Positions 6,148-16,432 of a stretch of DNA of 64,000 nt are shown here, one piece after another. The stretch is from contig DXIO01000091.1 of the NCBI GenBank assembly GCA_019112875.1, positions 58,507-122,506 of the forward strand. The letters are read 5' to 3'. Within the stretch, counting starts at the first letter, position 1, and each line of letters opens with the position of its first letter. Source of the DNA: Candidatus Aquabacterium excrementipullorum. GTDB lineage: Bacteria; Pseudomonadota; Gammaproteobacteria; Burkholderiales; Burkholderiaceae_C. Position numbers and translations under genes: made by a program. The notes under the pieces are model-generated. The model did not search any database. It had not been told where the DNA came from and was given only the letters and a program-made list of their open reading frames with translations.

Positions 6148-6552
6148 TCAACCGGCCACGGCCTGGCGCTCGCGCTGGGCCAGTGCGGTGATGGTCTCCA
6201 CCACGTCCTTGACCTTGAAGGGCTTGAGCAGCACACGCCGAACCTGCAGTTGCTTGAAGGCCACGACGGCGCGCTCGTCGCAGAAATCGGCGGTGACCAC
6301 CACGGGCGCATCGCCCCGGCTGCGCGTGGCGCCGCCGCGCAGGGTGTTGATGAGCTTGAGGCCGCCGCCGTCTTCGCCCACCGAGATCACGAAGGCATCG
6401 AAGGGGCGGGCCATCAGCATCTGGGCCGCGGCCTCGTGGCTGGGCGCGGCATGGATGTCACCGAGATCCAGGCCGCGCGCCACCGAGGTGACGGTGCTGC
6501 GCAGCACGAAGTAAGGCTCCACCAGCAGCAGGCTGAAACGGTCAGACGGCAT
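6148..6552 (-). CDS. Response-regulator receiver-like protein, degenerate phosphoacceptor
   Basis: Receiver-like fold pattern 'FSLLLVEPYFVLRSTV...DAFVISV...VLLKPFKVKDVVETI'; conserved KPF retained, acidic pair and phospho-Asp not seen. Confidence 0.7.
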   Translation of the reverse strand: MPSDRFSLLLVEPYFVLRSTVTSVARGLDLGDIHAAPSHEAAAQMLMARPFDAFVISVGEDGGGLKLINTLRGGATRSRGDAPVVVTADFCDERAVVAFKQLQVRRVLLKPFKVKDVVETITALAQRERQAVAG

Positions 6553-7090
6553 GCAGGCTTCCTTCCCCTCTCACGTCACCGCCCTGCACGGCATCGTCGG
6601 GCGGGGCCTGGCCCAGCAGTTCGGCCACGACCAGTTCACGCAGCGAGCCCAGGATGGCCAAGTCGATCGCATCCACCTGGCGAGGCTTGGTGTCGATCAC
6701 GCACAGCGTGCCGGCCACGAAGCCGTTGGGCAGCATCAAGGGCGCGCCGGCGTAGAAGCGGATGTGGGGCTCACCGGTGACGAGCGGGTTGTCGTGGAAG
6801 CGCTCGTCTTTCAAGGCATCCTCGATCAACAGCACGTCGGACTGCTGCAGCGCATGGCCGCAGAAGGACACGTCGCGTGGTGTCTCGCACACGTCGACAC
6901 CCACGCGGGCCTTGAACCACTGGCGGTTCTCGTCGACCAGGCTGATCACGCAGATGGGCACGTCGAACTCGGCGGCCGCGAAGGCGGCCACGCGGTCAAA
7001 GCGTTCTTCAGGGGGCGTGTCCAGGATCAGCAGTTCGCGCAAGGCCTGCAGGCGCTGGAGGTCGTCGCTGGGAATGGGCGCGGGCTTCAT
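6542..7090 (-). CDS. Stand-alone GAF domain protein
   Basis: 'RLQALRELLILDTPPEERFDRVAAFAAAEFDVPICVISLVDENRQWFKARVGVDVCETPRDVSFCGHAL...GTLCVIDTKPR' typical GAF. Confidence 0.85.
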   Translation of the reverse strand: MKPAPIPSDDLQRLQALRELLILDTPPEERFDRVAAFAAAEFDVPICVISLVDENRQWFKARVGVDVCETPRDVSFCGHALQQSDVLLIEDALKDERFHDNPLVTGEPHIRFYAGAPLMLPNGFVAGTLCVIDTKPRQVDAIDLAILGSLRELVVAELLGQAPPDDAVQGGDVRGEGSLHAV

Positions 7091-7221: not shown

Positions 7222-8130
7222 TTACACCCGGCGCAAGCCCGGCGTCTTCTCGAAAAACTCGGCCATCCACTCCACAAAGGCCTGCACCTTGATCGACAGG
7301 TGCCGGTTCGACGGGAACAGCACGTGCACCGGCAGCGGGTCGGTCGTCCAGTCGGGCAGCACCGCCACCAGTTCACCGGCGCGGCAGGCGCACTCGAAGG
7401 TGAAGCTGGGCAACTGGCCGATGCCCAGGCCCGCGAGCACGGCGTCCTCATACACATTGGAATCGTTGACGGACAGGCCCCCGTCGGGCTGCAGCTCGAT
7501 GCGCTGTCCATCCTTGGCGAAGTCCCAGGTGGCGGCGTTGCGGCCCGGCATGAAGTAGTTCACCCAACGGTGGCCACGCAACTCGTCAGGATGGGCCGGC
7601 ACGCCGTGCACCTCCACGTAGGACTTGGCCGCGCAGGTCTTGAACTGCATCGAGCCGATGCGCCGCGCCACCAGCGTCGGATCGCTGACCTCGCCCACAC
7701 GGATCACGCAGTCCACGCCTTCGCTGACCATGTTGACCACCCGGTCGCTGCAGCCCATCTCCAGGCTGATGTCCGGGTAGCGCGTGAGGAAGTCGTTCAT
7801 GCCGGTGAACATCAGGAAGCTGGCCATGCTGGTGGGCACGTCCACGCGCAGGCGGCCGCTGGGCAGGCCCTGGCGGGGCGACACGGACTCGTCCGCCTCA
7901 CGCAAGTCATCGAGGATGCGGCGGCAGCGCTCGTAATAAGCCGCGCCATCGGCCGTGACCGTGACCTTGCGCGTGGTGCGGTGCAGCAATCGGACACCGA
8001 GTTGCGTTTCCAACTCCTGCACCAGGGTCGAGATGGTGGCCTTGGGGGCGTTCAAAAGCTCCGCCGCACGGGTAAACCCGCCCGTGTCGACCACCCCCAC
8101 GAAGGCTTCAATCGCTTTGATTTTGTCCAT
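7222..8130 (-). CDS. LysR family transcriptional regulator
   Basis: 'MDKIKAIEAFVGVVDTGGFTRAAELLNAPKATISTLVQELETQLGVRLLHRTTRKVTVT' LysR HTH. Confidence 0.93.
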   Translation of the reverse strand: MDKIKAIEAFVGVVDTGGFTRAAELLNAPKATISTLVQELETQLGVRLLHRTTRKVTVTADGAAYYERCRRILDDLREADESVSPRQGLPSGRLRVDVPTSMASFLMFTGMNDFLTRYPDISLEMGCSDRVVNMVSEGVDCVIRVGEVSDPTLVARRIGSMQFKTCAAKSYVEVHGVPAHPDELRGHRWVNYFMPGRNAATWDFAKDGQRIELQPDGGLSVNDSNVYEDAVLAGLGIGQLPSFTFECACRAGELVAVLPDWTTDPLPVHVLFPSNRHLSIKVQAFVEWMAEFFEKTPGLRRV

Positions 8131-8242
8131 TGTTCAGATTTCCGAACAGTCAATTCCGTTGTAGGTAGTTTATTGACATTGCAGCAATCAATACAGTCAC
8201 TTACCTCGAATACCCCCAGGCGCGCCGTTTGGCGCCTCCATC

Positions 8243-9070
8243 ATGTCCGATCTTCCTGAACTCGCAGGTCAACCCGACGAGCTGTTCGACTGGCCCGGCC
8301 ACGCTGGCCAGGTGCACGTGCGGCTGTTCCGGGGCGCGCCGCGCAAGAAGGCCAACGAGACGCTGGTGGTGTTTTTCCATCCGGGCGGCTTCGTGGTAGA
8401 CGACACCGAAGCGTCCGACCCTTGCCTGCGCGTGCTGGCCGACACGTGCGAGGTCAACATCCTGGCCCCCTGCTACACCCTGGCGCCCGAGCGCCCCTTC
8501 CCTGCCGCGGTCGAGGACGCCCACGCGGTATTGACCCAGGCCGTGCGGCAACGCACCAAGCTTGGATGGAAGGGCAGCCACCTGTTCGTGGCCGGTGTGG
8601 AAGCAGGGGGCAACCTGGCGGCCGTGTCGGCCATGGTGTGCCGCGATCGGCAAGGCCCCGAGCTGGCCGGACAGATCCTGATCATGCCGATGCTCGATGC
8701 CAGCCTGCACTGCGCCTCGATGCGCTGCGCCGCCGACGAGGATGCCACCCGCAAGGTGGCCCGCGACGTGGAGCGCAGCTACCGCCTGTACCTGCCCAAC
8801 CCGGCCGACCGCCTGCACCCCTACGCCAGCCCGCTGCACGCCAGCCGCCTGGGCAACCTGCCCCCGGCGCTGATCATGCACACGCAAGGCGACCCGCTCT
8901 CGGACGAAGGCCGTGCCTACGCCGACAAGCTGCGCCACGCCGGCAACGAGGTGGCGCAAATCACCCTTCCCCCGCCCGACGACATCCTCGACAACAAGGA
9001 GCGATGTTCGATCACCTCCGACGACCCCAGCGTGACCGCGATGAAGCAGTTCCTCAGCGCGCACCAGTGA
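8243..9070 (+). CDS. HSL-family alpha/beta hydrolase-fold protein, nucleophile Ser apparently replaced
   Basis: 'VVFFHPGGFVVDD' (HGGG-like) and 'GVEAGGNLAAV' where the family normally has GDSAGGNLAA. Confidence 0.8.
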   Translation: MSDLPELAGQPDELFDWPGHAGQVHVRLFRGAPRKKANETLVVFFHPGGFVVDDTEASDPCLRVLADTCEVNILAPCYTLAPERPFPAAVEDAHAVLTQAVRQRTKLGWKGSHLFVAGVEAGGNLAAVSAMVCRDRQGPELAGQILIMPMLDASLHCASMRCAADEDATRKVARDVERSYRLYLPNPADRLHPYASPLHASRLGNLPPALIMHTQGDPLSDEGRAYADKLRHAGNEVAQITLPPPDDILDNKERCSITSDDPSVTAMKQFLSAHQ

Positions 9071-9231
9071 GTCATCAGGAGGGGTTCGAACCCACCCTCC
9101 GGCCTTTCAGCCTTCCATAAAAACAAGAGACAGCACCCCAGATCGACAACAACATCAGTCTGTCAAACGCCATGCAGCACCCTCGTCATCACACCTTCGT
9201 CCATCTCCATCAGACCCCGGGAGCGTTCTCC

Positions 9232-10410
9232 ATGAAAACCGTCCAACCTCGCTTCGTCCTGAGCGCCCTTGCTGCCGCGCTCGCCATCGGTGCCCTCAGC
9301 GGCTGCGGTGAAGAGCAAAGTGCCCAGGCAGCCGCCGGTGGCGCGCCGCCCGCCGCGCCTGTGTCCGTCGCCGAAGTGATCACCCGCCAGGTGACCGAGC
9401 AGCGCGAGTTCTCCGGCCTGGTCGAAGCCATCGACCGCGCCCAGTTGCGCCCGCGCGTTTCCGGCTACATCGACCGCGTGCAGCTCAAGCCCGGCATGCT
9501 GGTCAAGAAGGGCGACGTGCTCTTCGTGATCGACCAGCGCCCCTACCAGGCCGAAGTGGCCCGCGCCGAAGCCGCCGCTGCCAGCTCGCAGGCCAAGCTG
9601 GAGCTGGCCCGCACCGAGCAGGCGCGCTCCAAGCGCCTGCTGTCTGAAAACGCCATCGCCCAGCGTGATTACGACGAGCGCTCGTCCAACGTGCAACAGC
9701 TCGATGCCGGCGCCCGCGCCGACCAGGCCGCGCTGCAGACGGCCCGCCTGAACCTGGAATGGACCACCATCCGCGCGCCCTTCGACGGCCGCGTCGGCAA
9801 GGCCGAAGTGACGGTGGGCAACCTGGTCGATGGCAGCACCGTGCTGACCTCGGTGGTGTCGGCCAACCCGATGTACGTGAGCTTCAACAGCGACGAGACC
9901 ACCTACCTGCAAGTGGGCAAGCTGGCCCGCAGCAACCCCGCCGCGCTGAAGGTGCGCATCGGCCTGGCCAACGAACAGGGCTTCCCGCACGCCGGGCGCC
10001 TGGAGTTCGTCGACAACCAGATCGACCCGCAGGCCGGCAGCGTGCGCATGCGCGCCGTGATCGACAACAAGGATGGTTTGCTGACCCCGGGCCTGTTCGC
10101 CAAGGTGCAGGTGGGTGAGGATTCCTCGACCGGTGCCGCCTCGACGCTGGTGGCCGAACGCGCCATCGGCACCGACCAGAACCGCAAGTTCGTCTACGTG
10201 GTCGCGGCCAACAACATCCCCGAGTACCGTCCGGTACAGCTGGGCACGACCGTGGGCCCGCTGCGCGTGGTCTCGTCGGGCCTGAAGGCCGGTGACAAGG
10301 TCGTGGTCGATGGCCTGCAGCGCGTGCGCCCTGGTGCGCCCGTGGCACCGCAGGTCGTGCCGATGGAAGCGCCGCAAGGTGGCGCCTCGGCCGCTGCCGC
10401 CAAGCAATAA
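9232..10410 (+). CDS. RND efflux periplasmic adaptor subunit (membrane fusion lipoprotein)
   Basis: Lipobox 'AIGALSGCGEEQ', 'QREFSGLVEAIDRAQLRPRVSGYIDRVQLKPGMLVKKGDVLFVIDQRPYQAE'. Confidence 0.93.
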   Translation: MKTVQPRFVLSALAAALAIGALSGCGEEQSAQAAAGGAPPAAPVSVAEVITRQVTEQREFSGLVEAIDRAQLRPRVSGYIDRVQLKPGMLVKKGDVLFVIDQRPYQAEVARAEAAAASSQAKLELARTEQARSKRLLSENAIAQRDYDERSSNVQQLDAGARADQAALQTARLNLEWTTIRAPFDGRVGKAEVTVGNLVDGSTVLTSVVSANPMYVSFNSDETTYLQVGKLARSNPAALKVRIGLANEQGFPHAGRLEFVDNQIDPQAGSVRMRAVIDNKDGLLTPGLFAKVQVGEDSSTGAASTLVAERAIGTDQNRKFVYVVAANNIPEYRPVQLGTTVGPLRVVSSGLKAGDKVVVDGLQRVRPGAPVAPQVVPMEAPQGGASAAAAKQ

Positions 10411-10428: not shown

Positions 10429-13400
10429 ATGAACATTTCACGATTCTTCGTGGACAGGCCGATCTTTGCGGCCGTGCTGTCCATCCTGGTCTTCATCGCG
10501 GGTGCGATCTCCATCTTCAAGCTGCCCATCTCGGAATACCCCGAGGTGGTGCCGCCCTCGGTGGTGGTGCGCGCCCAGTTCCCCGGCGCCAACCCCAAGG
10601 TGATCGCCGAAACCGTGGCCGCCCCGCTGGAGGAGCAGATCAACGGCGTCGAGAACATGCTCTACATGTCCTCGCAGGCCACGACCGACGGCGTGCTCAC
10701 GCTGACCGTCACCTTCAAGATCGGCACCAACGTCGAGCAGGCCGAAACCCAGGTGCAGAACCGCGTGCAGCGCGCCCTGCCCCGCCTTCCCGAGGAAGTG
10801 CGCCAATTCGGCGTGACGACCGTCAAGGCCTCGCCCAACCTGACGCTGGTGGTCCACCTGCTGTCGCCCAAGGGCAGCTACGACGACGTCTACCTGCGCA
10901 ACTACGCCACCTTGAACATCAAGGACCGCCTGGCCCGCCTCAACGGCATGGGCGATGTGCAGATCTTCGGTGCCGGCGACTACGCCATGCGCGTGTGGCT
11001 GGACCCGCAGAAGGTCGCGCAGCGCGGCATGACGGCCGCCGACGTGGTGGCCGCCATCCGCGAGCAGAACGTGCAGGTGGCCGCCGGTGTGGTGGGTGCC
11101 CCGCCCGACACCAAGGCGCCCTTCCAGCTCTCGGTCAACGCCTCCGGGCGCCTGAGCACGGAAGAAGAGTTCGGCAACATCATCGTCAAGACCAACACCG
11201 ATGGCGGCATCACGCACCTGCGTGACGTGGCGCGCATCGAGCTGGGCTCCAACGGTTACGCGCTGCGCTCGCTGCTCAACAACAAGCCGGCGGTGGGCAT
11301 GGGCATCTTCGAGGCGCCCAACTCCAACGCGCTGCAGTTGTCGACCGACGTGCGCGCCGCGATGGACGAGCTGAAGAAGGACTTCCCGCCCGACGTCGAC
11401 TACGCCATCGTCTACGACCCGACGCAGTTCGTGCGCGACTCGATCAAGGCCGTGATCATGACGCTGCTGGAGGCCGTGGCCCTGGTGGTGCTGGTGGTGA
11501 TCGTGTTCCTGCAGACCTGGCGCGCGTCCATCATCCCGCTGCTGGCCGTGCCCGTGTCCATCGTCGGTACCTTCGCGGTGCTGCTGGGCTTCGGCTTCTC
11601 GATCAACACGCTGTCGCTGTTCGGCCTGGTGCTGGCCATCGGCATCGTGGTGGACGACGCCATCGTGGTGGTCGAGAACGTGGAGCGCAACATCGCCAAC
11701 GGCCTGAACCCGCGTGCTGCCACCATCCAGGCCATGAAGGAGGTCTCCGGCCCCATCATCGCCATCGCGCTGGTGCTGTGCGCCGTGTTCGTGCCCATCG
11801 CCTATGTGGCCGGCCTGACGGGCCAGTTCTACAAGCAGTTCGCGCTGACCATCGCCATCTCGACGGTGATCTCGGCCATCAACTCACTGACGCTGTCACC
11901 CGCCCTGGCCGCCGTGCTGCTCAAGCCGCACGACGCCCCCAAGGACCGGCTGGCACGCGGCATGGACTGGCTGCTGGGCGGCTTCTTCAAGCGCTTCAAC
12001 CGCGTGTTCGACCGCGCCTCGCACCGCTACCAAGGCGGCGTGCAGGGCACCCTGAACCACAAGGTCGCCACCATGGGCGTGTACCTGGTGCTGTGCGTGG
12101 CCGCGTTCTTCGTGTTCAAGGCCGTGCCCTCGGGCTTCGTGCCGGCGCAGGACAAGCAGTACCTGGTGGGCTTCGCGCAGTTGCCTGATGCCGCCTCGCT
12201 GGACCGCACCGACGCCGTGATCCGCCGCATGTCGGACATCGCCAAGTCGGTGCCCGGCGTGGCCGAATCGGTGGCCTTCCCCGGCCTGTCGATCAACGGC
12301 TTCACCAACGCGCCCAACGCCGGCATCGTGTTCTACACGCTGGAGGACTTCCACAAGCGCAAGGGTGACCCTGCCCGCACGGGCGACGCCATCGCGGCCG
12401 AGGTCAACAAGCGCCTGGGCGCCATCCAGGATGCCTTCATCATGGTGTTCCCGCCGCCCGCGGTGAACGGCATGGGCGCCATCGGCGGCTTCAAGCTGTT
12501 CATCGAAGACCGCGGCAACGTGGGCTACGACGAGCTGTACAAGGCCACCATGGCCCTGCAGATGAAGGCCTGGCAGACGCCGCAACTGGCCGGTGTGTTC
12601 AGCAGCTACCAGATCAACGTGCCGCAGCTGTTCGCCGATGTGGACCGCGTCAAGGCCAAGCAGATGGGCGTGCCTTTGAGCAGCATCTTCGACACGCTGC
12701 AGATCAACCTGGGCTCGCTGTACGTCAACGACTTCAACAAGTTCGGCCGCACCTTCCAGGTGATGGCCCAGGCCGACGCGCCCTTCCGCAGCACGCCCGA
12801 GTCGATCTCTCAACTCAAGGTGCGCAGCAACAGTGGCGAGATGGTGCCCTTGGGCAGCCTGCTGAAGATCTCGGACAGCTACGGCCCCGACCGCGTGCAG
12901 CGCTACAACGCCTACGTGGCGGCCGACATCAACGGTGGCGCCGCCCCCGGCGTGTCGTCTGGCCAGGCCAAGGAGATCATGGAGAAGATCGCCGCCGAGA
13001 CCCTGCCCAAGGGCGTGGGCTTCGAGTGGACCGACCTGACCTACCAGGAGATCCTGGCCGGCAACACCATGGTCTACGTGTTCCCGCTGTGCGTGCTGCT
13101 GGTGTTCCTGGTGCTGGCCGCGCAGTACGAAAGCTGGACGCTGCCCCTGGCCGTGATCCTGATCGTGCCGATGTCGATGCTGTGCGCGTTGGCCGGGGTG
13201 TACATCACCAAGGGCGACAACAACATCTTCACGCAGATCGCGCTGTTCGTGCTGGTGGGCCTCTCGGCCAAGAACGCGATCCTGATCGTCGAGTTCGCCC
13301 GCGAGCTGGAACACCATGGCCGCACCATCGTCGCCGCCGCGCTGGAAGCCAGCCGCCTGCGTCTGCGCCCGATCCTGATGACGTCCATCGCGTTCATCAT

Positions 13401-13620
13401 GGGTGTGGTGCCCCTGGTGTTCTCCAGCGGCGCCGGTTCGGAAATGCGCCATGCCATGGGCGTGGCCGTGTTCGCCGGCATGCTGGGCGTGACGCTGTTC
13501 GGCCTGTTCCTGACGCCGGTGTTCTACGTGCTGCTGCGCTTCCTGGCCGTGCGCCTGGAAGGCCGCCGCACCGACGAGCCCCAGGTCCCGCCTCAAGACG
13601 CCCTCATCCAGGAGGCTTGA
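10429..13620 (+). CDS. RND efflux transporter permease (HAE1 family)
   Basis: 'MNISRFFVDRPIFAAVLSILVFIAGAISIFKLPISEYPEVVPPSVVV', TM4 'GIVVDDAIVVVENVER'; 1063 aa. Confidence 0.95.
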   Translation: MNISRFFVDRPIFAAVLSILVFIAGAISIFKLPISEYPEVVPPSVVVRAQFPGANPKVIAETVAAPLEEQINGVENMLYMSSQATTDGVLTLTVTFKIGTNVEQAETQVQNRVQRALPRLPEEVRQFGVTTVKASPNLTLVVHLLSPKGSYDDVYLRNYATLNIKDRLARLNGMGDVQIFGAGDYAMRVWLDPQKVAQRGMTAADVVAAIREQNVQVAAGVVGAPPDTKAPFQLSVNASGRLSTEEEFGNIIVKTNTDGGITHLRDVARIELGSNGYALRSLLNNKPAVGMGIFEAPNSNALQLSTDVRAAMDELKKDFPPDVDYAIVYDPTQFVRDSIKAVIMTLLEAVALVVLVVIVFLQTWRASIIPLLAVPVSIVGTFAVLLGFGFSINTLSLFGLVLAIGIVVDDAIVVVENVERNIANGLNPRAATIQAMKEVSGPIIAIALVLCAVFVPIAYVAGLTGQFYKQFALTIAISTVISAINSLTLSPALAAVLLKPHDAPKDRLARGMDWLLGGFFKRFNRVFDRASHRYQGGVQGTLNHKVATMGVYLVLCVAAFFVFKAVPSGFVPAQDKQYLVGFAQLPDAASLDRTDAVIRRMSDIAKSVPGVAESVAFPGLSINGFTNAPNAGIVFYTLEDFHKRKGDPARTGDAIAAEVNKRLGAIQDAFIMVFPPPAVNGMGAIGGFKLFIEDRGNVGYDELYKATMALQMKAWQTPQLAGVFSSYQINVPQLFADVDRVKAKQMGVPLSSIFDTLQINLGSLYVNDFNKFGRTFQVMAQADAPFRSTPESISQLKVRSNSGEMVPLGSLLKISDSYGPDRVQRYNAYVAADINGGAAPGVSSGQAKEIMEKIAAETLPKGVGFEWTDLTYQEILAGNTMVYVFPLCVLLVFLVLAAQYESWTLPLAVILIVPMSMLCALAGVYITKGDNNIFTQIALFVLVGLSAKNAILIVEFARELEHHGRTIVAAALEASRLRLRPILMTSIAFIMGVVPLVFSSGAGSEMRHAMGVAVFAGMLGVTLFGLFLTPVFYVLLRFLAVRLEGRRTDEPQVPPQDALIQEA

Positions 13621-13624
13621 TCAC

Positions 13625-15142
13625 ATGATGTCCCTTCGACACACCCTCACCCCGCTGATGCTGGCACTGGTGCTGGCCGGGTGCGCCACCGCGCCCGAGC
13701 CCCGCGATGCCAAGCTCAGCGTGCCGGCCGGCTTCAAGGAAGCCGCCGCGACCGAAGCCAACGCCACGACCACCGCCGCCGCGCCGCAAGGCCAGTGGAA
13801 AACCGCCGAGCCCTCGGAAGCCGCCCCGCGCGGCGCCTGGTGGCTCGCCTTCGACGACGCCAAGCTCAACGAACTGCAACAGCAGGCTGAAGCCGCCAAC
13901 CCCAGCCTTGCGGTCGCCGCGGCCCGGGTCAAGGCCGCCCGTGCCTCGCTGGGCAGTGCCCGGGCTGACCGACTGCCGCAGGTGGGCATCAACGCTGGTG
14001 TGACGCGCCAGAAGTACGCGCCGGCCCAGCAGGGCTACTCGGCCGACACCAACTTGCCCCCGGGCACGGTGTGGAACGCCGGCCTGAGCGCCAGTTACGA
14101 GGTCGACCTGTTCAGCCGCGTGGCCAACAGCGTGAACGCCGCCCAGGCCGACGCGCAGGCCAGCGAAGCCACCTACCGCTCGGTGCTGCTGACCCTGCAG
14201 GCCGACGTGGCCCAGGCCTACTTCAACCTGCGCACGCTGGATGCCGAAGTGGCCGTGCTGGAGCGCACCCTCGGCCTGCGCCAGGAAACGTCGAACCTGA
14301 TCGGCAAGCGCAAGGACGCGGGCGACGTGTCCGAGCTGGACGTGGCCCGTGCCCGCACCGATCTGGCCACCACGCGCGCCGAACTGCAGGGCGTGCGCGG
14401 CCAGCGTGCGCAGGTGGAACATGCCCTGGCGCTGCTGCTGGGCCAGGCCCCGGCCAACTTCAACCTCGCACCGCAGCCCCTGGCCACGGATGCCAAGGTG
14501 CCGCACGTGCCGGCCGGCCTGCCCTCGGCCCTGCTGGAGCGCCGCCCCGACGTGGCCGCCGCGCAGGCGCAGATGATGGCCGCCACGGCCCGCGTGGGCC
14601 AGGCCCGCTCGGCCGTGTTCCCGGCGCTGATGCTGACGGCCAATGGCGGCAACGCCTCGTACGAGCTGCACAACCTGTTCGACTGGAGCGCGCGCGCCTG
14701 GCTGGTCAACGCCGTGCTGTCGATGCCCCTGTTCGATGGCGGCCGCAACAAGGCCAACATCACGCGGGCCGAGGCCTCGCTGGACGAATCGGTGGCCAGC
14801 TACCGCCAGACCGTGCTGGGCGCCTTCGGCGACGTGGAGGACAAGCTCTCGGGCCTGGCCGCCGTGCGTGACCAGACCGAGTCGCTGGACGAAGCCGTGG
14901 TGGCCGCGCGCCGCTCGGCCGAACTGGCCGACAAGCGCTACCGCGCCGGTGAAGACAGCTACCTCACGCTGATCGACACGCAGCGCAGCCTGCTGGCCAT
15001 CGAGCGCCAGGCCGTGCAGTTGCGCGGTTCGTGGGCCACCACCACGGTGGGCCTGATCCGCGCGCTGGGTGGCAGCTGGGGCGAGCCGTCGGCCGCACAG
15101 GCATCCGCCCCGCCTCAAGGGGATGCGGTCAAGCCGCTGTAA
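13625..15142 (+). CDS. Efflux outer-membrane factor lipoprotein (NodT/OprM type)
   Basis: Lipobox 'LALVLAGCATAPEP', 'PRGAWWLAFDDAKLNELQQQAEAANPSLAVAAARVKAARA'; follows adaptor and permease. Confidence 0.93.
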   Translation: MMSLRHTLTPLMLALVLAGCATAPEPRDAKLSVPAGFKEAAATEANATTTAAAPQGQWKTAEPSEAAPRGAWWLAFDDAKLNELQQQAEAANPSLAVAAARVKAARASLGSARADRLPQVGINAGVTRQKYAPAQQGYSADTNLPPGTVWNAGLSASYEVDLFSRVANSVNAAQADAQASEATYRSVLLTLQADVAQAYFNLRTLDAEVAVLERTLGLRQETSNLIGKRKDAGDVSELDVARARTDLATTRAELQGVRGQRAQVEHALALLLGQAPANFNLAPQPLATDAKVPHVPAGLPSALLERRPDVAAAQAQMMAATARVGQARSAVFPALMLTANGGNASYELHNLFDWSARAWLVNAVLSMPLFDGGRNKANITRAEASLDESVASYRQTVLGAFGDVEDKLSGLAAVRDQTESLDEAVVAARRSAELADKRYRAGEDSYLTLIDTQRSLLAIERQAVQLRGSWATTTVGLIRALGGSWGEPSAAQASAPPQGDAVKPL

Positions 15143-15189: not shown

Positions 15190-16332
15190 TTATGCCGCCC
15201 GAGCGGACCGGGTTCTGCGGTGAAGCCTGAGCAGAGACACGGCCAGCAAGCCCATCATCGACATCACCTGAGTATTCACCTCCGGAACGGGTGACAACAC
15301 ATAGCCCTGGTAGAAGCCCTGGGGATTCACGCCCATGCCCACGATCTGCCCGGCCTCGTTGATGTCCGTGGCCGACAGCAGGGTCCAGCCCGTGGCCACC
15401 ACGTCAGCCAGGCTGTTGAGATCGATCACTTCACCATGCAGCCACATCACGGCGCGCTGGTCGTTCGATCCACTGAAATTGCGATCGCTGAAGCCCACGG
15501 CCACGCCAGCGTTGTTGATGGCCAGGGCCGCGCTCCAGTCGTCACCGGCCAACCCGCCCAGCACGGTGCGCTGGCCGTCTTGCCACAGCACGGCCTTGTC
15601 CAGTTCGATGCCCACGATCTGGCCGACATCGTTGATGTCGTAGGCGGAATCACCGAACCGGGATGCCGATGATCCGCTGAGATCAATCAGTTGTCCCTTG
15701 TCCCACAGGACGGCATGCTTCGAACCGAACCCGTCAGCGGCGCTGGAGTACCCCACTACCTGACCCGACGCGTTGATGGCATTCGCGCCGCTGCTGCCGG
15801 TGGCGGTCAAGGCACCAAGGTCCACCATGCTGGTGCCGTTCCAGAGAAAAGCCCGGTCCTTGTGGTCGCTGTAAGGCAGCAAGGTGTCGCTGACACCCAC
15901 GACCTGGCCGCTGTTGTTGATGTCGTAAGCCGTGCTGTTCCGGCCTCCGGAGAGCACCCCCAGGCTCACCATGGCCCCGTTGGTCCATAAGGCGGCTTCG
16001 TAACCGTAGACGATCTCGCCAGGCCTGATGGGGAAGGCGCCGCCAACCACCTGGCCCGCATCGTTGAGGCCATAAGCGCTGGACTGGTAGCGGGTTTCCA
16101 GATCGGAAATGACACCGCCTTGCCACATGAACACCGTCTCACGCGGCGCGAAGCTGCTGCCGGCCACCTGGCCATGCTCATTGATGCCGCCAGGCGTGCT
16201 CATCCTGCCGTCGGGCGGGTAACCGATGTCGGTGAACGTCCATTCACCAGCCGCCTGAGCGCTTTGCGCGGCCAAGGCCAGCGCCAACATTCCCAGCCAG
16301 CGGTAGCCGGCCCCCTGCATGCCAAAGTTCAT
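15190..16332 (-). CDS. HAF-repeat extracellular protein with PEP-CTERM-like C-terminus
   Basis: Signal peptide 'MLALALAAQSAQA'; repeats 'INEHGQVAG', 'LNDAGQVVGGAF', 'INNSGQVVGVS', 'INASGQVVGYS', 'INDVGQIVGIE', 'INEAGQIVGMG'; C-terminus 'SPVPEVNTQVMSMMGLLAVSLLRLHRRTRSARAA'. Confidence 0.8.
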   Translation of the reverse strand: MNFGMQGAGYRWLGMLALALAAQSAQAAGEWTFTDIGYPPDGRMSTPGGINEHGQVAGSSFAPRETVFMWQGGVISDLETRYQSSAYGLNDAGQVVGGAFPIRPGEIVYGYEAALWTNGAMVSLGVLSGGRNSTAYDINNSGQVVGVSDTLLPYSDHKDRAFLWNGTSMVDLGALTATGSSGANAINASGQVVGYSSAADGFGSKHAVLWDKGQLIDLSGSSASRFGDSAYDINDVGQIVGIELDKAVLWQDGQRTVLGGLAGDDWSAALAINNAGVAVGFSDRNFSGSNDQRAVMWLHGEVIDLNSLADVVATGWTLLSATDINEAGQIVGMGVNPQGFYQGYVLSPVPEVNTQVMSMMGLLAVSLLRLHRRTRSARAA

Positions 16333-16432
16333 TGTCTTGCTCCCTGATGAACGGCCATTATCGTCACATGGCGTCACATTTCATCCAGGGGGTCCCTCAT
16401 TCGTGTGGTGGCCCGCGCGCTCGCGGCAGGCA

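Follow-up and report, generated by a model that had tools for sequence, protein, structure and literature searches.

In the stretch of DNA analysed here (the window, 64,000 nucleotides), the gene at positions 8243-9070 (+) is the Aquabacterium version of LlpE, and the aligned sequences identify the loss of the nucleophile serine (Ser) as a family trait of pump-linked LlpE-type proteins. From these sequences, a role in binding or sensing drugs is more probable for LlpE than that of the lipase of its annotation.

The llpE gene has been described at the head of the CeoAB-OpcM and BpeEF-OprC operons (PMC4396416, PMC5587915). The same arrangement as in the window has been published as ceoR-llpE-ceoAB-opcM in Burkholderia cenocepacia (PMC1557404) and as bpeT-llpE-bpeEF-oprC in B. 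pseudomallei, and it is only in the latter that co-transcription was shown (PMC5587915). The gene product has been labelled as a putative lipase/carboxyl esterase (PMC1557404, PMC5587915) and, in the first of these reports, as periplasmic. Deletion of llpE leaves the export of known antibiotics unchanged (PMC4396416, PMC5587915), and further study has been called for (PMC4396416). A 'lipase' locked into a pump operon without a role in export has been a long-standing puzzle since the discovery of the CeoAB-OpcM operon, and the loss of Ser turns experiments toward binding and induction. In the openly accessible literature, a search that the original llpE papers (Nair et al.) fell outside, no mention of Ser loss in LlpE or of a Ser-less hydrolase in an efflux operon was found.

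The llpE cassette in the window

The open reading frame is intact, starts with ATG, and encodes 275 amino acids. It is the first gene of an MFP-RND-OMF operon, all four genes lying on the same strand with short gaps, and a LysR gene is adjacent to it. The components of the cassette are as follows:

7222-8130 (-): LysR-type regulator in the CeoR/BpeT position, divergent from the hydrolase gene (Pfam HTH_1 and LysR_substrate); a LysR gene adjoins all 16 genus orthologues
8131-8148 (no strand): likely LysR operator, a conserved palindrome (TGTTC-N8-GAACA) abutting the LysR start codon
8243-9070 (+): LlpE-family pseudo-esterase of the alpha/beta-hydrolase fold, with no evident signal peptide and a shortened N-terminal cap
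9232-10410 (+): periplasmic adaptor (MFP; Pfam HlyD_D23/HlyD_3)
10429-13620 (+): RND (AcrB/OqxB/CeoB-like) inner-membrane transporter (Pfam ACR_tran; NCBIfam RND_permease_1 above cut-off)
13625-15142 (+): outer-membrane efflux channel (OMF; Pfam OEP)

The MFP reading frame opens at 9172, and its likely, lipoprotein-like start at 9232 was chosen from sequence. TGTTCA-N6-TGAACA is found at the LysR start in most genus orthologues, the window copy carrying one change. A sequence-only reading of the window had placed an HSL-family hydrolase upstream of an RND pump and divergent from LysR; the genes between 7222 and 15142 bear out this placement, whereas the identity as LlpE was missed. In comparison with its closest orthologue, the hydrolase gene has a dN of 0.053 and a dS of 0.49 (simple counting method, high G+C), a ratio similar to those of the MFP and OMF genes, and it is under purifying selection.

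Some other genes were noted around the cassette. Positions 6148-6552 (-) encode a receiver-like protein (Response_reg below cut-off), in which the acidic pair and the phospho-acceptor Asp seem to be missing (LLLVEP..., FVISVG), and this gene overlaps a GAF-domain gene at 6542-7090 (-). A tblastn search of L032, the nearest orthologous locus, recovered neither of the two. Just past the efflux operon, positions 15190-16377 (-) encode a HAF-type repeat, DUF3466-like protein, for which the corresponding place in L032 contains no match.

Loss of catalytic residues in the window protein

The residues and segments that bear on catalysis are located in the window as follows:

8378-8392 (+): oxyanion-hole motif, reading HPGGF against HGGGF in HSL and APGGF in a sub-clade
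8594-8611 (+): nucleophile elbow GVEAGG, in which Glu120 (codon GAA, 8600-8602) replaces Ser
8816-8833 (+): HPYASP (His192), with His in 55/55 LlpE-type proteins and Asp in 33/56 Ser-type HSLs
8888-8911 (+): GDPLSDEG, with the catalytic-acid position kept (Asp217, codon 8891-8893)
8966-9034 (+): segment in place of the catalytic-His loop, LPPPDDILDNKERC(255)SITSDDPS

The protein matches Pfam Abhydrolase_3 at 185 bits (gathering score 25), as befits the alpha/beta-hydrolase fold, and its best PDB sequence relatives are Est8, 2YH2, and Est2. In an alignment with solved HSL esterases that spans 220 residues, E120 falls exactly on the nucleophile Ser. Of the features of an active HSL/type IV esterase, the catalytic Asp of DPLxDE is retained as D217, while the Ser of GDSAGG is absent, HPGGF stands in place of HGGG, and no catalytic His follows the last strand in either the window protein or its orthologues. 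The sequence-only reading had described this same set of residues, and each of its elements is found as it stated. Ester hydrolysis by a Ser-His-Asp triad is not expected of the window protein because Ser and His are absent. Another Ser as the nucleophile was also considered and rejected at the sequence level: there is no GxSxG elsewhere in the protein, and Ser159 lies outside the elbow and is absent from the Asp-type members of the family described below. In the segment replacing the His loop, the first of two cysteines (Cys) of the orthologues is retained, and the second corresponds to Ser263.

Residue 16 of the window protein is matched to residues 54-55 of Est2/2YH2, which leaves the N-terminal cap approximately 38 residues short. 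A simple hydropathy test detected no hydrophobic N-terminus in the 55 LlpE-type members, which suggests that LlpE would be located in the cytoplasm, contrary to the 'periplasmic' label (PMC1557404). A structure model computed from the window protein and one relative reached a pLDDT of 50 and a pTM of 0.59; since this pLDDT is too low for triad geometry, the model was used for the fold alone, and Foldseek puts this weak model on HSL esterases.

Orthologues in the genus

Among the 61 related genomes searched, the hydrolase gene is present in 16 of the 37 genomes of the genus (58-90% identity), including Aquabacterium soli (NZ_RSED01000004). All 16 orthologues carry G[V/C]EAGGNLAAVSA, and the divergent LysR gene followed by hydrolase, MFP, RND, and OMF genes is found in every one examined, one contig ending inside the RND gene. 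The invariant Glu at the elbow excludes chance, and a sequencing error or a strain mutation behind GVEAGG is thereby ruled out. The sequence-only reading had proposed to check whether the substitution is conserved and linked to the RND operon, and both hold among the genus orthologues. One genome contains another cassette, 43% identical, whose elbow likewise has Glu (GEEAGG).

Two further genomes of the genus have the LysR gene without the hydrolase gene, the LysR gene sitting at a contig end. LysR matches in G048 and G043 were rejected as llpE-less cassettes, as they are other LysR genes with no adjoining pump.

Elbow residue and pump linkage across the family

Homologues were collected from the genus, order, class, and phylum (approximately 1,130 genomes) and from a plasmid collection, which yielded 112 non-redundant proteins whose elbow residue was assigned by alignment column. 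The genome sets are samples, and candidates were picked by similarity to the LlpE-type family. With gene context at many loci resting on 1.5-kb flanks, Ser occurs in none of the 54 homologues found in a LysR-MFP/RND context (36 Glu, 17 Asp, and 1 Gln), whereas the homologues without pump linkage comprise 56 with Ser, one with Glu (an orphan, L052/L080), and one with an alignment gap. The open reading frame is intact in all 54 cassettes read. The Asp forms include LlpE of B. cenocepacia, whose gene lies upstream of ceoA/ceoB and whose elbow reads GHDAGG, so that the textbook LlpE is also without Ser. Because every pump-linked member read lacks the nucleophile Ser and nearly always has a carboxylate in its place, the lipase annotation of LlpE is probably wrong. 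Orthologues with GxSxG, which would have spoken against the sequence-only reading, were sought among the 54 and none was found; its proposal of a pseudo-hydrolase tied to the RND operon is well supported across them, while the ligand-binding or sensory role that it suggested fits the evidence and may apply.

A quick tree was computed without the elbow columns, with SH-aLRT as its only support measure. A single branch (99) splits Ser from non-Ser proteins, placing the window protein together with authentic Burkholderia LlpE and separate from the other HSLs. Support is 99 for a clade of the Asp forms and 81 for another that unites the Glu forms with the Gln form. Pump-linked members also occur in Alphaproteobacteria (Azospirillum), and more pump-linked Glu forms were found in genomes from a different class of the phylum.

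Several loci depart from the usual arrangement. The orphan L080 (G134:C1, 7454-8386) is a Glu-type homologue (GEEAGG) with no LysR gene or RND pump within approximately 7 kb. Two Azospirillum plasmid loci lack an OMF gene in their Asp-type llpE-MFP-RND cassettes; in one (L097) the LysR gene is oriented in the same way as llpE, and in the other (L100) an IS256 transposase occupies the expected LysR place. On plasmid pBRH01 of Mycetohabitans rhizoxinica HKI 454 (L098, 4801-8886), an intact Asp-type llpE and a LysR gene lie beside a broken pump, in which the MFP gene lacks its middle and the RND match stops after approximately 382 residues.

What LlpE may do

By analogy with the plant gibberellin receptor GID1, and from the sequence evidence above, we consider the chances slightly better than even that the LlpE-type pseudo-esterase works in the cytoplasm as a partner of LysR and the pump, binding a ligand without hydrolysing it. 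The protein keeps the HSL fold together with the elbow, the catalytic-acid loop, and a pocket region, and it would be produced in the cytoplasm alongside the RND pump that LysR controls. What used to be the active site might then accommodate a pump substrate or an inducer, the elbow carboxylate contributing to the site, and LlpE could sense, carry, or buffer this ligand and so adjust the LysR regulator or the ligand supply, comparable to GID1 for gibberellin. That antibiotic export is unaltered when llpE is deleted (PMC4396416) is in keeping with such a role. It has been reported that CeoAB-OpcM is inducible by chloramphenicol and salicylate (PMC11200565) and that an additional regulatory factor was postulated for the induction of BpeEF-OprC (PMC5587915). 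Together with a below-cut-off kinship to chloramphenicol hydrolases, these observations make a sensor or carrier for pump substrates the most economical reading. If LlpE does sense inducers, this would bear on the induction of CeoR/BpeT-type pumps, for which the extra factor was postulated. Two points count against this reading: no phenotype is known for the loss of LlpE (PMC4396416), and the Asp clade, which retains an Asp-His-Asp set with HGGG, could be catalytic.

The latter point raises the unlikely alternative that LlpE is an enzyme with other chemistry, using the elbow carboxylate as a nucleophile or acid/base, at least in the Asp clade. A carboxylate is kept at the elbow in 54 of the 55 LlpE-type proteins despite a mean pairwise identity of 41%, and the Asp forms have HGGGF exactly in 16 of 17, the acid loop, and a C-terminal His in 17/17. 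However, one member has Gln at the elbow, and none of the PDB relatives listed was recognised as an acidic-nucleophile HSL, their annotations being those of ordinary esterases, lipases, and serine hydrolases. The Glu clade, the window protein included, also argues against it: the catalytic His is lost in 36 of 37 (L116 may keep it), its position having drifted to G, N, Q, E, I, or P, and the oxyanion motif varies (HPGGF, APGGF, HAGGF, HGGAF, and others). In the Glu forms the His was therefore free to drift and the carboxylate was not. In a segment ranking, the better conserved stretches include the elbow, oxyanion, and HPYASP segments, and the former His loop is not among them.

With regard to the Cys residues of the Glu forms, at least two are present in the C-terminal segment in 31 of 37, versus 0 of 17 Asp and 6 of 52 Ser forms. 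These proteins might be metal- or thiol-based sensors, in which the Cys (often CxC) of the His-replacing loop, Glu120, and His192, a residue common to the Asp and Glu clades (55/55), would bind metal or sense electrophiles; the pump driven by MexT, a CeoR homologue, responds to nitrosative stress (PMC11200565). This is distinctly improbable, as the window protein has the first Cys only, the Cys spacing differs between sub-clades, and the Glu forms are Cys-rich overall (6.8 versus 4.1 per protein). Within the Glu forms, three cassettes of the Cupriavidus metallidurans type (L092, L093, and L099) form a long-branched sub-clade, probably a third LlpE variant, whose members carry HAGGF and end in a conserved CGDGVE...C segment.

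The strict pump linkage and the family-specific motif HPYAxP could also be accounted for by a ligand-free protein-protein adaptor that serves, for instance, LysR or the pump. We give this little credence, since an adaptor would have no need of the conserved elbow and oxyanion segments of a former active site, and llpE is intact in M. rhizoxinica beside the broken pump, although the LysR gene is kept there. That llpE is a functionless passenger in the course of decay, as the missing catalytic residues and the lack of a known deletion phenotype (PMC4396416) might suggest, is largely contradicted by purifying selection, open frames in 54/54 cassettes, a nearly invariant elbow carboxylate, and a spread over two proteobacterial classes, and is most improbable.

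Comparison with known systems

Burkholderia LlpE shares with the window protein the divergent LysR gene followed by hydrolase, MFP, RND, and OMF genes, as well as the non-Ser branch of the tree, but it has an Asp elbow (GHDAGG), HGGG, and a C-terminal His, in contrast to Glu, HPGG, and no His in the window. The HSL/type IV esterases (Est2, Est8, LipP1) share with the window protein the fold family, the elbow, and the position of the acid loop, whereas the latter protein lacks Ser and His and has a short N-terminal cap and an altered oxyanion motif. Haloalkane dehalogenases and epoxide hydrolases use an Asp nucleophile at the alpha/beta-hydrolase elbow. The acidic elbow residue is thus shared, although these enzymes belong to another sub-family with a different oxyanion design, and the Glu forms of LlpE are without the essential His.

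The EstDL136-type chloramphenicol hydrolases are related in HSL sequence (145 bits for the window protein against NF033149), and CeoAB-type pumps are induced by chloramphenicol (PMC11200565). However, the window protein is far under the NF033149 cut-off of 500, has lost Ser, and lies in another gene neighbourhood.

GID1 descends from the HSLs and, having lost a catalytic residue, serves as a receptor without catalytic activity (PMC3531792). It differs from LlpE in keeping Ser, the residue that it lost being His, and in a lid fitted to gibberellin; a receptor role of LlpE is proposed by analogy only. As a tentative and rather doubtful extension of this analogy, LlpE might be a widespread bacterial counterpart of GID1, a family of HSL-fold pseudo-enzymes in Burkholderiales and some Alphaproteobacteria that would use an active site with a carboxylate substitution to detect a drug or inducer inside the cytoplasm and control a LysR-driven RND pump, the site of the Glu clade having been further rebuilt with Cys.
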